32,802 nucleotides of DNA from contig JAQBTX010000006.1 in the NCBI GenBank assembly GCA_027624795.1, positions 1 to 32,802 of the forward strand, in the 5' to 3' direction. The position numbers and the translations under genes are program-made. Source of the stretch: a bacterium. GTDB taxonomy: Bacteria > Patescibacteriota > Microgenomatia > UBA1406 > GWC2-37-13. Below, in pieces: positions 6,372-13,921 of this stretch. The notes beneath the pieces were generated by a model, which was given only the letters and a program-made list of their open reading frames with translations, was not told the DNA's origin and did no database searches. Each line of letters opens with the position of its first letter. Position 1 is the stretch's first letter.

Positions 6372-7433
6372 ATGCGACCCTACCTCATTGTTCCGCAACT
6401 TATCGAACAACCCACATGGGGAGGAGACTATATAGTTCATTTAAAAGGTTGGGATGATTTGAAAAAGATCAAGGTCGGCAAAATTGGTCAAAGCTACGAG
6501 TTGTCTGGCTCATCGCTTTTAGCAACCAATATTATTAGTAGTGACGATCTGGGACTCTACAAACCCAACACTACTACTCCACTTGAGTCGGTTTTGGAAC
6601 CAGATGAACACATGCCGCTTCTTATTAAATTAAATCAAGCACGAGGTAATTCGTTTCAGCTCCATATTAAACCAGGTGAGAAAAATGATGTGTGGAAAGC
6701 CAAACCTGAGTCGTGGTACTTTTTGGAAAAAGGGTGTGTAACTTTAGGGCTTAATCCCAAAACTTCCACAGAAGATTATAAAAAGGCCTGCCAAACTATA
6801 GAATCGTTTATGAAAAATCTATCTTCTCAAATAAAAAGCAAGTCACTTGCATTAAATGATGCACGGCTTCAAGCTAATTTATTTATACAAAAACTAAACC
6901 CATGGCAGTATGTTAATCTCTATAAGGTTGATCAGTTTAGCCTTATTGATCTATCTATGGGCGCTATTCATCACTCGTGGGAAGAAGATCCAGATAATAA
7001 TGTGGGAAATGTGGTGTATGAGGTGCAACTGGATGTAAGTGATGACGAATCGACTATGAGATCGTTTGACCAAGGGAAGATAAAAGATGATGGAAGTATA
7101 CGCCCCATAACTATTGATGACTATTTTACTCACATAGACGCAGCCCCCGAACACAACACTCTTGATTACTTAGCGCGCACCCCACAAGAAGAATTATTGC
7201 TCGCAACAGAGTTCTATGTATTGAATCGGATGGAAATAACAAGTAAACGATCTATTCAAATGAAGGATTTGTGGCATCATGTATATGTACAAAACGGAAC
7301 AATAAGCCTTGTGGGAGCTGGAAGAACGCTTCATATCACTAAGGGCCATTCATGTTTTATTCCATCTGGCGTAAGTAACTATACTGTATCATCAACTAAT
7401 GCAACGATATTAATTACTCATTTACCACAATGA
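6372..7433 (+). CDS. manA: Mannose-6-phosphate isomerase, class I
   Basis: 'EQPTWGG' N-terminus, 'LIKLNQARGNSFQLHIKPG' cupin motif and C-terminal cupin fold. Confidence 0.8.
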   Translation: MRPYLIVPQLIEQPTWGGDYIVHLKGWDDLKKIKVGKIGQSYELSGSSLLATNIISSDDLGLYKPNTTTPLESVLEPDEHMPLLIKLNQARGNSFQLHIKPGEKNDVWKAKPESWYFLEKGCVTLGLNPKTSTEDYKKACQTIESFMKNLSSQIKSKSLALNDARLQANLFIQKLNPWQYVNLYKVDQFSLIDLSMGAIHHSWEEDPDNNVGNVVYEVQLDVSDDESTMRSFDQGKIKDDGSIRPITIDDYFTHIDAAPEHNTLDYLARTPQEELLLATEFYVLNRMEITSKRSIQMKDLWHHVYVQNGTISLVGAGRTLHITKGHSCFIPSGVSNYTVSSTNATILITHLPQ

Positions 7434-8842
7434 AATTCTCATATCAAAACACTGCTCGAATAGTTGAAGATGAATTAATAAAAACAATAAATTCTCTTTC
7501 TGATTATCAGTCACACTTGAAAGATGTAGTAGCTACTAGAGGATATGACGCTGATGAGGCTTCCATGAATCTTCCATCAGATGTTAAGCTTATCCAAAGT
7601 GTAATGCAGATAGTTGACAAAAAGAAATCAGACAATCTCAAATACATTATTATCATAGGTATTGGTGGATCAAATTTAGGAACAAAAGCCATATATGACG
7701 GGCTTTATGGATATTACGACGTGTTGCGGACTGATCGATTTCCCAAAATGATATTTTTAGATACTCAAGATACTGATGTGTTATCAAATCTTTCTTCACT
7801 CCTCTCTTCCCTATCTGATCCTAATGAAATCATCATAAACGCCATCAGCAAATCGGGTGGCACCACCGAAACCATGGCAAATTTTGAGGTGGTCTTTGGT
7901 ATGTTGAAAGATCGCTTCTCCTCTATCGCCAACCGGATTGTATTTACTACTGATGAGAATTCTAAATTTGATTTAGCGGGAAAAAATAATTCCATTGATG
8001 TTCTCTATCTTCCTCAAAAAGTTGGTGGCCGGTATTCAATCTTTTCTTCAGTTGGCTTGTTCCCTCTTGCTTTGTTGGGGGTTGATATTGAAAAAATGAT
8101 GAGCAGTGCGGTAAAAATGCGGGATTTATGCGTTAATTCGGAAGGTTTAGAAAATATAGCGCTTGTTTCGGCAAGTATACTATTTATACTGTCACAACAA
8201 GGAAAAAATATCAATGACAATTTTATTTTTGCACCACAACTTGAATCTATGGGTAAGTGGTACCGACAACTCATGGGGGAGAGTGTTGGAAAAGATGGAA
8301 AGGGGATAACTCCAACCGTATCTATTGGGTCAACCGATTTACATTCAGTAGGGCAGTTGTACTTGGGCGGTCCTAAAGATAAAATAACCACATTTATTTA
8401 CATAAAGCCGACTGATGGGGGAGTCATAGTTCCTCAACAAGCATATTTGGGACTTATTGAAATGATTCAAGGAAAATCCATCTCATCTATTATGCAAGCT
8501 ATAGTACAGGGAACTAAAAAGGCATATGAAAACCAAAATCTACCATTTATGGAAATTGAACTCGATGAGATTTCTGTGTCTGAAATTGCTGCATTTATGC
8601 AGTTTAAAATGATCGAGATGATGTATTTGGGCAAACTCTTTGGGGTAAACACCTTCGATCAGCCGCATGTGGAGCTATATAAAACAGAGACAAAGAGAAT
8701 ATTAGAAGAATCATTGAAAGAAACCATGGAGATAATGTCCGATCCCACACTTATGGCGGCAATACAAGAAGGTGAGGCGGAGATAAAAGCCGGTAAAGGA
8801 ATTTCTTGGGAAGACGTCAAAAAAGAATTGGATTTAGAATAA
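7430..8842 (+). CDS. pgi: Glucose-6-phosphate isomerase with an appended antitoxin-like C-terminal tail
   Basis: 'IIIGIGGSNLGTKAIYDGL', 'ISKSGGTTETMANF', 'FAPQLESMGKWYRQLMGES', 'FGVNTFDQPHVELYK'. ATGA overlap with manA. Tail after residue ~427 is discussed under findings. Confidence 0.9.
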   Translation: MKFSYQNTARIVEDELIKTINSLSDYQSHLKDVVATRGYDADEASMNLPSDVKLIQSVMQIVDKKKSDNLKYIIIIGIGGSNLGTKAIYDGLYGYYDVLRTDRFPKMIFLDTQDTDVLSNLSSLLSSLSDPNEIIINAISKSGGTTETMANFEVVFGMLKDRFSSIANRIVFTTDENSKFDLAGKNNSIDVLYLPQKVGGRYSIFSSVGLFPLALLGVDIEKMMSSAVKMRDLCVNSEGLENIALVSASILFILSQQGKNINDNFIFAPQLESMGKWYRQLMGESVGKDGKGITPTVSIGSTDLHSVGQLYLGGPKDKITTFIYIKPTDGGVIVPQQAYLGLIEMIQGKSISSIMQAIVQGTKKAYENQNLPFMEIELDEISVSEIAAFMQFKMIEMMYLGKLFGVNTFDQPHVELYKTETKRILEESLKETMEIMSDPTLMAAIQEGEAEIKAGKGISWEDVKKELDLE

Positions 8843-9094
8843 ATGTACAAGATTGTTGTTTCTCCAAAAGCAATTAAAGAGCTGAAAATTATTAAAAAAC
8901 TTCATAGGGAGGCATTTAAAAAGACGCTTGAAGCGCTTATGGAAAATCCTTATGATGGCAAACCACTTAGTAAAGAAATGCTTGGGAAATACTCATATCG
9001 CGTAGGGGTTTATAGAATTATCTACTCAGTTAATAAGAAGGATAGAATGATCAATGTAATAACGGCGGGCCACAGAGGCATCGTATATCAGTAA
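8843..9094 (+). CDS. RelE/ParE-superfamily toxin-like protein
   Basis: 83 aa, 'MYKIVVSPKAIKELKIIKKLHREAFKKTLEALMENPYDGKPLSKEMLGKYSYRVGVYRIIYSVNKKDRMINVITAGHRG'. ATG directly abuts the pgi TAA. Confidence 0.85.
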   Translation: MYKIVVSPKAIKELKIIKKLHREAFKKTLEALMENPYDGKPLSKEMLGKYSYRVGVYRIIYSVNKKDRMINVITAGHRGIVYQ

Positions 9095-9095
9095 A

Positions 9096-9743
9096 CTATC
9101 TTTTCCTCGCCAAACACGAAATCCATTCCACTTCTGAGCGACCAACTTTAGGTTGTTCGTCTTTTTCGTTATATTGCTCTATTTTTGAAACCTGAAACCC
9201 AGAAACCTTCATAAGACTTCTCACTTCATCGAGCGTAAAAAATTGAAAGAATCTGTCGTGTTTAGAGAGGCTATCGTTAACTATTTTAAATTTATTACTA
9301 TCTATTTGGGCTTTCACATTAACATATAATGTGCCATTACCTTTTAATATGCGATAAAATTCCTTTAATGCTTTCTTGACTTCGTTTATTGTTTCAAAAT
9401 GAAGAAGAGAGGCATTTGCCCAAACTCCATCAAACAACTCATCTTCAAATGGGAGGTTTAAAAAGCTTCCTGTTATAAATGTTCCGGTAGGTGCATGTTC
9501 TTTCGCTTTTTGGACAAACTCATCAACAAGATCGATTCCAATTACTTCAAGACCTTCTTCTAATAAATACTTACTGTCTCTTCCTGCTGCACAACCCGCA
9601 TCAAGAACTAATCCACCCTTAGGTAGTTGCTTTGTAAAAAAAGAAAGTTTATTGGTCTTTTGAAATTGATAATAGCCCAGTGTATATTTTTGAATATTGT
9701 TTCGATACCAGTCAATAGTGTCTTTAAATCCTGCTACTTTCAT
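9096..9743 (-). CDS. Class I SAM-dependent methyltransferase
   Basis: 'LVLDAGCAAGRDSKYL' motif I, 'FDGVWANASLLHF'. Confidence 0.85.
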   Translation of the reverse strand: MKVAGFKDTIDWYRNNIQKYTLGYYQFQKTNKLSFFTKQLPKGGLVLDAGCAAGRDSKYLLEEGLEVIGIDLVDEFVQKAKEHAPTGTFITGSFLNLPFEDELFDGVWANASLLHFETINEVKKALKEFYRILKGNGTLYVNVKAQIDSNKFKIVNDSLSKHDRFFQFFTLDEVRSLMKVSGFQVSKIEQYNEKDEQPKVGRSEVEWISCLARKR

Positions 9744-11371: not shown

Positions 11372-12469
11372 TTATTCTTGTGTACGCACTGGCATGATGA
11401 TATGAGTATATGTTTTATCTTTTGAGGACTTAAATACTATTGGGGCGTCGGGTCGAAGTATTTCTATAATTATTTCTTCACCATCGACGCTATTTAGGAA
11501 GTCGAGTACGTAGCGGTAGTTGAATGAAACCTTTTGTGGCGGCCCTTCGATCGTTACATCTTGTGTGGTTGTATTTTCATCATTTGCTTCTTTCTTGGGT
11601 GATATCCGAAGCATACTGTCTCCAAAATCATACTGTACTACATATGAATAGTCCCGTGCAAAAACAGAAATGAGTTTTGTGTTTCGAATAAGTTCATCTT
11701 TTTGTAACACAATCGTTGTTACCTTACTATCTGGAAGCACGCGCTCGTAGGGAGGGAATTCTCCATCGATGAGGCTGGTATAGAAATCCATTTGATTATC
11801 TGATAGACGCACCACCCGCTCTTTTTTAGAGAAAGAAAAAGTAACAGATTTACTTTCTTTAATATATCCACTTACTTTTCTAAGAAAGTCTGCGGGAATT
11901 ATCATAGATGGGATGGTCCCCGTTTGTTTTTCTTTCACTATAGAGAGTCTGAACCCATCAGTTGTAACAAAAACGACCGCTCCCTCTTCTGAAACAACAT
12001 TCACTCCGGTAAGTACCGGGCGGGCGTCATCTGATGACGCAGCAAATAGGAGTTTTGAAAGATTTTTACTTATAAGTGACGTTTCTGCTTGCTCAATTTG
12101 CTCCCCGGGTTGTGGTGGTTGAGGAAAGTCTTCGGCAATAATGCAGGGAAACGCGCCCTTTGTTTTTTTCTGTTGTATTGTTACGTTTTGCTTTTCAATT
12201 GTTATATCGATGTCTCCTGCGTCTAGAAGTTGAACGAACTCAATGATTTTCTTTGGCTCTATAATGGCGTGTAGTGTGGGTACTTCGTCCGCCGGTATGA
12301 TAGAGTGGAAATAGCTGTTGAGGTCTGTACTATATATATGAAGCTCTTTCCCTTCATTAGATAGATATACTCCTTGAAGTGCTTGGGTTGACGTCAGTCT
12401 GTTGGCAGTAAATTCCTGAGCTATTTTTATCTTTGATAAAAACCCTTCCTTATCAAGTGTTATCTTCAT
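11372..12469 (-). CDS. dnaN: DNA polymerase III sliding clamp beta
   Basis: 365 aa clamp; 'GVNVVSEEGAVVFVTTDGFRLSIV' and C-terminal 'VFKSSKDKTYTHIIMPVRTQ'; adjacent to dnaA. Confidence 0.93.
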   Translation of the reverse strand: MKITLDKEGFLSKIKIAQEFTANRLTSTQALQGVYLSNEGKELHIYSTDLNSYFHSIIPADEVPTLHAIIEPKKIIEFVQLLDAGDIDITIEKQNVTIQQKKTKGAFPCIIAEDFPQPPQPGEQIEQAETSLISKNLSKLLFAASSDDARPVLTGVNVVSEEGAVVFVTTDGFRLSIVKEKQTGTIPSMIIPADFLRKVSGYIKESKSVTFSFSKKERVVRLSDNQMDFYTSLIDGEFPPYERVLPDSKVTTIVLQKDELIRNTKLISVFARDYSYVVQYDFGDSMLRISPKKEANDENTTTQDVTIEGPPQKVSFNYRYVLDFLNSVDGEEIIIEILRPDAPIVFKSSKDKTYTHIIMPVRTQE

Positions 12470-12502
12470 TGGTAGTATATATATAATAGTAGTAATAGGG
12501 GC

Positions 12503-12519
12503 TGTGCATAAGTGTATAA
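12503..12519 (-). promoter_or_regulatory. DnaA-box-like pair in the dnaA-dnaN gap
   Basis: TGTGCATAA (12503-12511, reverse complement TTATGCACA) overlapping AGTGTATAA (12511-12519, one mismatch). Confidence 0.5.
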
Positions 12520-12547
12520 AACAGACTGCGCATTTTCAAGACCATTC

Positions 12548-12569
12548 AAACACCCACATGTTGGTGTTT
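12548..12569 (-). terminator. Hairpin between dnaA and dnaN
   Basis: AAACACCCA-catg-TTGGTGTTT, one mismatch; no strong U tract. Confidence 0.3.
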
Positions 12570-12583
12570 ACAACGTGTGGACT

Positions 12584-13921
12584 CTATGTAGATGTGTATA
12601 GGCTTTGTCTTATCACATCAATCTCTTTCTTAAATTCTACGTCTTTCATACAAAGACCTTGAATTTTATTTACCGCATGCATTACAGTGGTGTGGTCCTG
12701 CCTCTTCACTAAAAACGCGACGTCAGCTAGGCTTATTTCAAGCTCTGTACGAAGAAGATACATGACAATTTGACGAGTGAGTGCAACCTCTCGTTTCCGT
12801 GAACTTCCACGAAGCTGTGCCTGCTTTACATTGTAATAAGCGCACACCGCCCGCATAACTTCTTGTGGGGAGGCTTTTGCCACCTTTCTTACCCCAGCGC
12901 TTTTTTGAAAAAAGGCCTCAACTGTATCAAGTGTTATCTTCTGATCTTTCTCATGCAAGCTTCGTGCATATAAAGAGAGGAGGGTCCCCTCAAGCCCCCG
13001 GGTATCAGTAATGATATCTGCTATTGCTTTTGCTGCTGACATATCTATCTCTATGTTTTTCTCCTTCGCTTTGATAAGGAGGATGGCGGCACGAAGCTCA
13101 AACCCCGGAGATTGTATATCTACTAAAAGCCCGCCCGAAAAACGGGAACGCAACCGATCTTCTAAATTTCGTATCTCATGGGGTGGTTTATCTGAGGTAA
13201 GAATAACCTGGCCCCCCGCTGAAACAACACTATTAAAGGTGTGAAAAAACTCTTCTTGCACGGTTTGTTTCCCTGCTATAAATTGAATATCATCTAAAAT
13301 AATAAGCCCGAGAGAGCGGTATTTATTACGAAAAGCAGGGGTTTTCTTTCCACGAATTGCTTCTATAAGGTCATTCATAAACTTTTCACCTGAACAAAAC
13401 AATACCCGGGCATTCCTATTTGTGTTTAAAATATGTCGTGCAACTGCTTGTGCTATATGACTTTTTCCCACACCAACCCCTCCATACAAAAAGAGTGGGT
13501 TATATGAAGATCCTAAGTTTTTAGCCACTGCCTGACTTGCGGCAAAGGCCACTTGGTTGCTGGTAGAAACAGCAAAGTTATCAAACGAACATCCTGGATT
13601 GATACCAGCTTGACGAAGTAAATCTTCTATAGAGGGTTTGAATTCAAGAAGTGGCCCGACATCTTCTGTTTTTTGAACAGCTGTTTTTAGGAGTATTTCA
13701 ACCACCACATCCCTTCCGGTGTGGGCAGTAAGCTTTTCTTCAATGTCTTGCCGCTTCTTTTGGAGATACGTATATGAGCCAGTGCTATCACATATGAGCG
13801 TAATAGAGTTTTCTTCCAAAAGTGCGAGTTTGGCATTTGAAAGAACGGAATGGTATATCTGATTAGATACCCTTAAATGCTCGACTGACTTAAGAAACGA
13901 TTCCCAGAAAGATTGTTGCAT
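12584..13921 (-). CDS. dnaA: Chromosomal replication initiator DnaA
   Basis: 'NPLFLYGGVGVGKSHIAQAV' Walker A, 'LIILDDIQFIAGKQTVQEEFFHTFN' Walker B, 'VKRQDHTTVMHAVNKI' DNA-binding signature. Confidence 0.97.
   Translation of the reverse strand: MQQSFWESFLKSVEHLRVSNQIYHSVLSNAKLALLEENSITLICDSTGSYTYLQKKRQDIEEKLTAHTGRDVVVEILLKTAVQKTEDVGPLLEFKPSIEDLLRQAGINPGCSFDNFAVSTSNQVAFAASQAVAKNLGSSYNPLFLYGGVGVGKSHIAQAVARHILNTNRNARVLFCSGEKFMNDLIEAIRGKKTPAFRNKYRSLGLIILDDIQFIAGKQTVQEEFFHTFNSVVSAGGQVILTSDKPPHEIRNLEDRLRSRFSGGLLVDIQSPGFELRAAILLIKAKEKNIEIDMSAAKAIADIITDTRGLEGTLLSLYARSLHEKDQKITLDTVEAFFQKSAGVRKVAKASPQEVMRAVCAYYNVKQAQLRGSSRKREVALTRQIVMYLLRTELEISLADVAFLVKRQDHTTVMHAVNKIQGLCMKDVEFKKEIDVIRQSLYTST

Follow-up and report, generated by a model that had tools for sequence, protein, structure and literature searches.

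A glucose-6-phosphate isomerase that carries the toxin-binding half of a Phd/YefM-type antitoxin in a Patescibacteria genome

In one genome of the Patescibacteria, glucose-6-phosphate isomerase (GPI, encoded by pgi) ends in the toxin-binding half of a Phd/YefM-type antitoxin, and the gene for a RelE/ParE-superfamily toxin follows without a gap. Our main reading, to which we give a probability of roughly three in four, is that a deletion fused the antitoxin half to GPI and that the GPI-borne tail acts as a constitutive, non-autoregulated antitoxin entrenched with its toxin. The locus lies in a window of 32,802 nucleotides, by which the whole stretch of DNA analysed is meant; the host genome (1.07 Mb) has Ca. 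Roizmanbacteria as its closest relatives and contains one copy of pgi, and the fusion is known from this single metagenome-assembled genome. The features are listed below, G003 and G005 being two genomes of the same genus.

6372..7433, plus strand: mannose-6-phosphate isomerase-type gene (ORF; PF21621 MPI_cupin_dom, E = 5.5e-9)
7430..8842, plus strand: pgi, glucose-6-phosphate isomerase with fused antitoxin tail, 470 aa (ORF and profiles)
8707..8710, plus strand: fusion (deletion) junction (blastn split on G003 and G005, and alignment)
8711..8839, plus strand: predicted Phd/YefM-type antitoxin C-terminal (toxin-binding) element, GPI residues 428-470 (profile, PDB and sister-genome matches, and model)
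8843..9094, plus strand: RelE/ParE-superfamily toxin, 83 aa (PF05016, TIGR02385, Foldseek RelE fold)
9096..9743, minus strand: convergent methyltransferase (PF08241, E = 5.5e-21)

The upstream isomerase gene and the start of pgi overlap by 4 bases, and the two genes are likely in the same operon. The toxin ATG abuts the stop codon of pgi (TAA, 8840-8842) with no spacer and in the identical frame, as the original prediction had claimed for a RelE-like toxin. No separate small antitoxin gene is present at the locus, the tail being inside an open frame of 480 aa, and the neighbours are the mannose-6-phosphate isomerase and methyltransferase genes, with no adjoining gene for a repressor or transcriptional regulator. 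By eye, a dnaN-dnaA-like pair was also seen on the minus strand of the window (11372-13921), a few kb from the fused pgi, which may place the locus near the replication origin.

Judged by profiles, the window protein is clearly a member of the GPI family despite its divergent Patescibacteria clade: it scores 72 bits with PF00342 against a cut-off of 22, and its best PDB match is 3ifs (E = 4.8e-48), with the NCBIfam equivalog cut-offs for GPI being missed (best NF010697, 250 bits vs 443). The GPI homology ends at residue ~424-431, and 37 related GPIs stop 0-9 residues beyond the end of the catalytic domain, none of the 37 having an antitoxin tail; thus, residues 428-470 are a genuine addition, and a natural extension of GPI is ruled out. 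The short bacterial GPIs 1zzg, 1b0z, and 3ifs share the catalytic domain (residues 1 to ~427) with the window GPI but lack its tail. The comparison of pgi length and 3' neighbor among relatives, which the original prediction had proposed as a check, found no GPI that carries the tail without an adjacent toxin. In a family-level genome search, 46 of the 72 genomes gave no match to the window GPI or tail, and many genomes of the same family would seem to have no recognizable GPI of the window type.

Searched alone, another of the proposed checks, the tail matched RelB_ParD (NF050811, E = 0.0019) in NCBIfam, and 9g12_C (E = 0.0038) and 3g5o_A in the PDB; used as a profile, it found 3g5o_A and 9g12_C at 3-4e-4, and it is 72-75% identical (E~1e-13) to the standalone antitoxins of the sister genomes. 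With a match so far above chance, the tail is by homology an antitoxin C-terminus, in line with the earlier claim that GPI ends in a Phd/YefM-like tail. PF02604, the N-terminal DNA-binding/dimerization domain of Phd/YefM, has no Pfam match in the window protein; on intact antitoxins it spans residues 3-74, a stretch largely absent from the window protein. The toxin exceeds the cut-offs of both PF05016 (ParE_toxin, 42.2 bits vs 23) and TIGR02385 (32.2 bits vs 27.9), matches 9g12_A and 3g5o_B in the PDB, groups as a model with RelE structures in Foldseek, and has in its C-terminal part the residues R58, H77, R78, and Y82 (toxin numbering), which the alignment shows to be conserved in the family. 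That the tail and the toxin form a cognate pair is independently supported, since they match both partners of the same solved complexes (3g5o and 9g12).

Structure models agree with this pairing. When the tail and toxin were modeled as one covalent chain, with the TAA read as Q and 51 aligned sequences, the mean pLDDT was 94.4 and the tail helices (92-97) lay beside the toxin, and the final helix of GPI ran on without a break into the first helix of the antitoxin. The model of the full 554-residue chain had a pLDDT of 85.8, with lower values in the tail (63-77) and 79-90 in the toxin. There is also an experimental precedent, as an isolated Phd-C element failed against its Doc toxin and a SUMO-Phd-C fusion neutralized it (PMC10440598). 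Homology to the solved complexes, the joint model, the conserved residues, and this precedent together suggest that the GPI-borne tail would neutralize the toxin. The original prediction had further proposed that internal initiation could release a free mini-antitoxin. ATGs in frame are indeed present at 8726 and 8735 (38 and 35 aa), as are further in-frame starts at TTG 8714 and ATG 8753, but none of the four is preceded by a strong Shine-Dalgarno sequence; a mini-antitoxin of 35-38 aa is therefore disfavored, both by these starts without a clear ribosome-binding site and by the failure of Phd-C alone.

The origin of the fusion can be read from the sister genomes. In G005 (L007) and G003 (L008), pgi encodes 428 and 427 aa, respectively, and is followed by the promoter/operator of a toxin-antitoxin (TA) module, then by a Phd/YefM antitoxin of 98-100 aa, on which PF02604 is found at 4e-16 (G005) and 1e-16 (G003), as it also is in the L038 orthologue, and finally by a RelE-type toxin. 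By blastn, window positions 8560-8709 align to the pgi ends of these genomes and 8708-9110 to their TA region, with 188 bp (vs G005) and 192 bp (vs G003) between the two blocks absent from the window. In G005 the missing stretch includes the stop codon of pgi, the region between the genes, and the first 46 antitoxin codons; in the window, the end of pgi (codon ~426-427) continues in frame with antitoxin codon 47. The toxin and methyltransferase stops are 1 nt apart in the window and likewise in G003, and the end of this flank is also preserved in G005; the TA module is thus at the orthologous site. The comparison shows, as the source of the fusion, an in-frame deletion of ~190 bp at an ancestral pgi/phd/yefM-relE site, and the earlier claim that an antitoxin lost its N-terminal half and was joined to GPI by its toxin-binding half finds its unfused counterpart at the same site. 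A third genome of the genus, G001, has a GPI 78% identical to that of the window and no TA downstream of pgi. Before-state (G003, G005), loss state (G001), and after-state all occur within one genus. In G001 (L006), the region downstream of pgi also has no methyltransferase, and a PIN-domain ORF adjoins pgi.

A deletion of this kind could in principle be an assembly artefact or a strain chimera, the organism itself having no deletion, and the genome is indeed in 80 contigs. This is very improbable, as the junction homology amounts to a few bases at most, with no long microhomology found and hence no long shared word to collapse, the frame is preserved, both flanks are syntenic with G003, and the genome is 98% complete with 0.45% contamination.

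The deletion also removed the regulatory site. A conserved promoter-operator, TTGACAnnnTGTACAnnATTnTGTA, precedes, with small variations, the related antitoxins of eight other genomes as well as the L002 antitoxin of the window's own genome (loci L007, L008, L038, L029-L032, L035, L039, and L002; ~45 bp or less before the antitoxin start); the core of the YefM operator is TGTACA (PMC7730913, PMC4803016). The TTGACAnnnTGTACAnnATTnTGTA pattern with its TGTACA operator was not found in the window even with 3 mismatches allowed, and thus the deletion took the regulatory site and the regulatory domain together and spared the neutralizing element and the toxin. As a separate observation, the TTGACA..TGTACA..TGTA arrangement is strikingly conserved among phd/yefM modules at unrelated sites.

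The tail could instead be an incidental remnant, in which a recent, near-neutral deletion hit a module whose toxin was already weak or silent, leaving the tail as a passenger that will decay. Such an account would fit the occurrence of the fusion in a single genome, the lack of the whole TA in G001, which makes the module dispensable in the clade, and the identity of just 49-53% between the window toxin and those of G005 and G003. However, we consider it unlikely: the cut falls between the two functional halves of the antitoxin with the frame kept, the family-conserved toxin residues are retained, and both tail and toxin are undamaged, with a rate of divergence no higher than that of intact modules. 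With synonymous sites near saturation, which hampers dN/dS, the dN of the tail to L038 is 0.24 vs 0.32-0.33 for the intact G005 and G003 antitoxins, and that of the toxin is 0.33 vs 0.29-0.32. By these relative rates the tail and toxin appear to be without sign of decay; the toxin tree gave no support for or against a sister relationship between the window toxin and the G003 and G005 toxins. A further alternative is that a different Phd/YefM antitoxin, encoded elsewhere in the genome, controls the toxin in trans, which would make the GPI tail irrelevant, and a complete phd/yefM-relE pair does exist at G000:C60 (L002). Its antitoxin, however, has its own adjacent toxin, and the best other match to the tail in the genome is 46% over 39 aa, so this route seems extremely improbable. 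The L002 pair (1369-2481) adjoins a hicAB pair.

Fusion of the tail to a long protein was seen once in the survey. Two slightly overlapping samples were scanned with the tail profile: one of the phylum (380 genomes), with 39 matches, and one of the class (373 genomes), with well over 100. Together they hold ~750 Patescibacteria genomes and >160 tail matches. The window has the only genuine match in a long frame (480 aa), all other genuine matches being in frames of ≤158 aa, and a RelE-type toxin adjoins nearly all of them among the loci examined. Two other long-frame matches to the tail sequence or its profile, L003 (397 aa) and L101 (396 aa), are probable glycosyltransferases by eye and were rejected as chance matches, and L134, a strong match in a 58-aa frame, is cut by the contig end and so is no truncated antitoxin. 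L032 (G054:C25, ~1363-1602) is possibly another altered module, its Phd/YefM antitoxin having a premature TAG after ...KKGKMYD with the downstream RelE toxin intact. In a non-exhaustive search of open-access full text, no core metabolic enzyme was described as naturally fused to a type II antitoxin element.

The locus is best described as a type II TA module whose antitoxin is cut to its toxin-binding half and moved onto a glycolytic enzyme, a variant of the known Phd/YefM-RelE modules. Like the hybrids of this kind (yefM-yoeB, axe-txe, and relBE1/relBE2 of M. tuberculosis, PDB 9g12 and 3g5o), it has a homologous toxin-binding element and a RelE/ParE-fold toxin, with the genes adjacent and the antitoxin part first, and at the protein level it very probably works in much the same way. 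In contrast to them, three defining features are missing, namely the DNA-binding/dimerization domain, the TGTACA operator-promoter, and the standalone antitoxin gene, and a glycolytic enzyme takes the place of the N-terminal half. An antitoxin without a DNA-binding domain that acts against a RelE/ParE-superfamily toxin is also found in PaaR2-PaaA2-ParE2 (PMC8630535), but PaaA2 stands alone as a protein and its repressor is encoded by a gene of its own, and no repressor gene adjoins the window locus. In PanA Phd-C and the engineered SUMO-Phd-C (PMC10440598), a linear Phd-C on an unrelated globular carrier neutralizes the toxin, a predicted likeness to the GPI tail; in those systems an antitoxin domain or a laboratory tag serves as carrier and the toxin is a Doc homologue, whereas here a natural enzyme of central metabolism carries the element and the toxin is of the RelE type.

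We propose that the ancestor had a chromosomal phd/yefM-relE type II TA module just 3' of pgi and that the ~190 bp in-frame deletion removed the pgi stop, the TA promoter-operator, and the DNA-binding/dimerization half of the antitoxin, which placed antitoxin codon 47 directly after pgi codon ~426-427. The remaining half would prolong the last helix of the GPI C-terminus, wrap the toxin, and hold it inactive. Expression of the toxin would now be tied to pgi transcription and stop/start-coupled translation, YefM-type autoregulation would be gone, and a stable, abundant enzyme would provide the antitoxin constitutively. Loss of pgi or truncation of the tail would then be harmful as long as the toxin persists, leaving pgi and the toxin mutually entrenched; the earlier suggestion that GPI neutralizes the toxin and that the pair becomes hard to lose is thus plausible and agrees with the models. 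A bolder extension, which we regard as decidedly unlikely, is that the GPI-antitoxin is a metabolic sensor, in which the abundance, oligomeric state, ligand occupancy, or stability of GPI alters toxin release, or the bound toxin modulates GPI; if true, a glycolytic enzyme would directly gate a translation-inhibiting toxin. On the main reading, GPI with its entrenched antitoxin tail would parallel, in a natural setting, the SUMO-Phd-C made in the laboratory, a linear antitoxin element on an unrelated protein, and the locus lets one ask whether an antitoxin can act without a DNA-binding domain and without autoregulation, and whether TA modules can become entrenched via the capture of a core metabolic gene.
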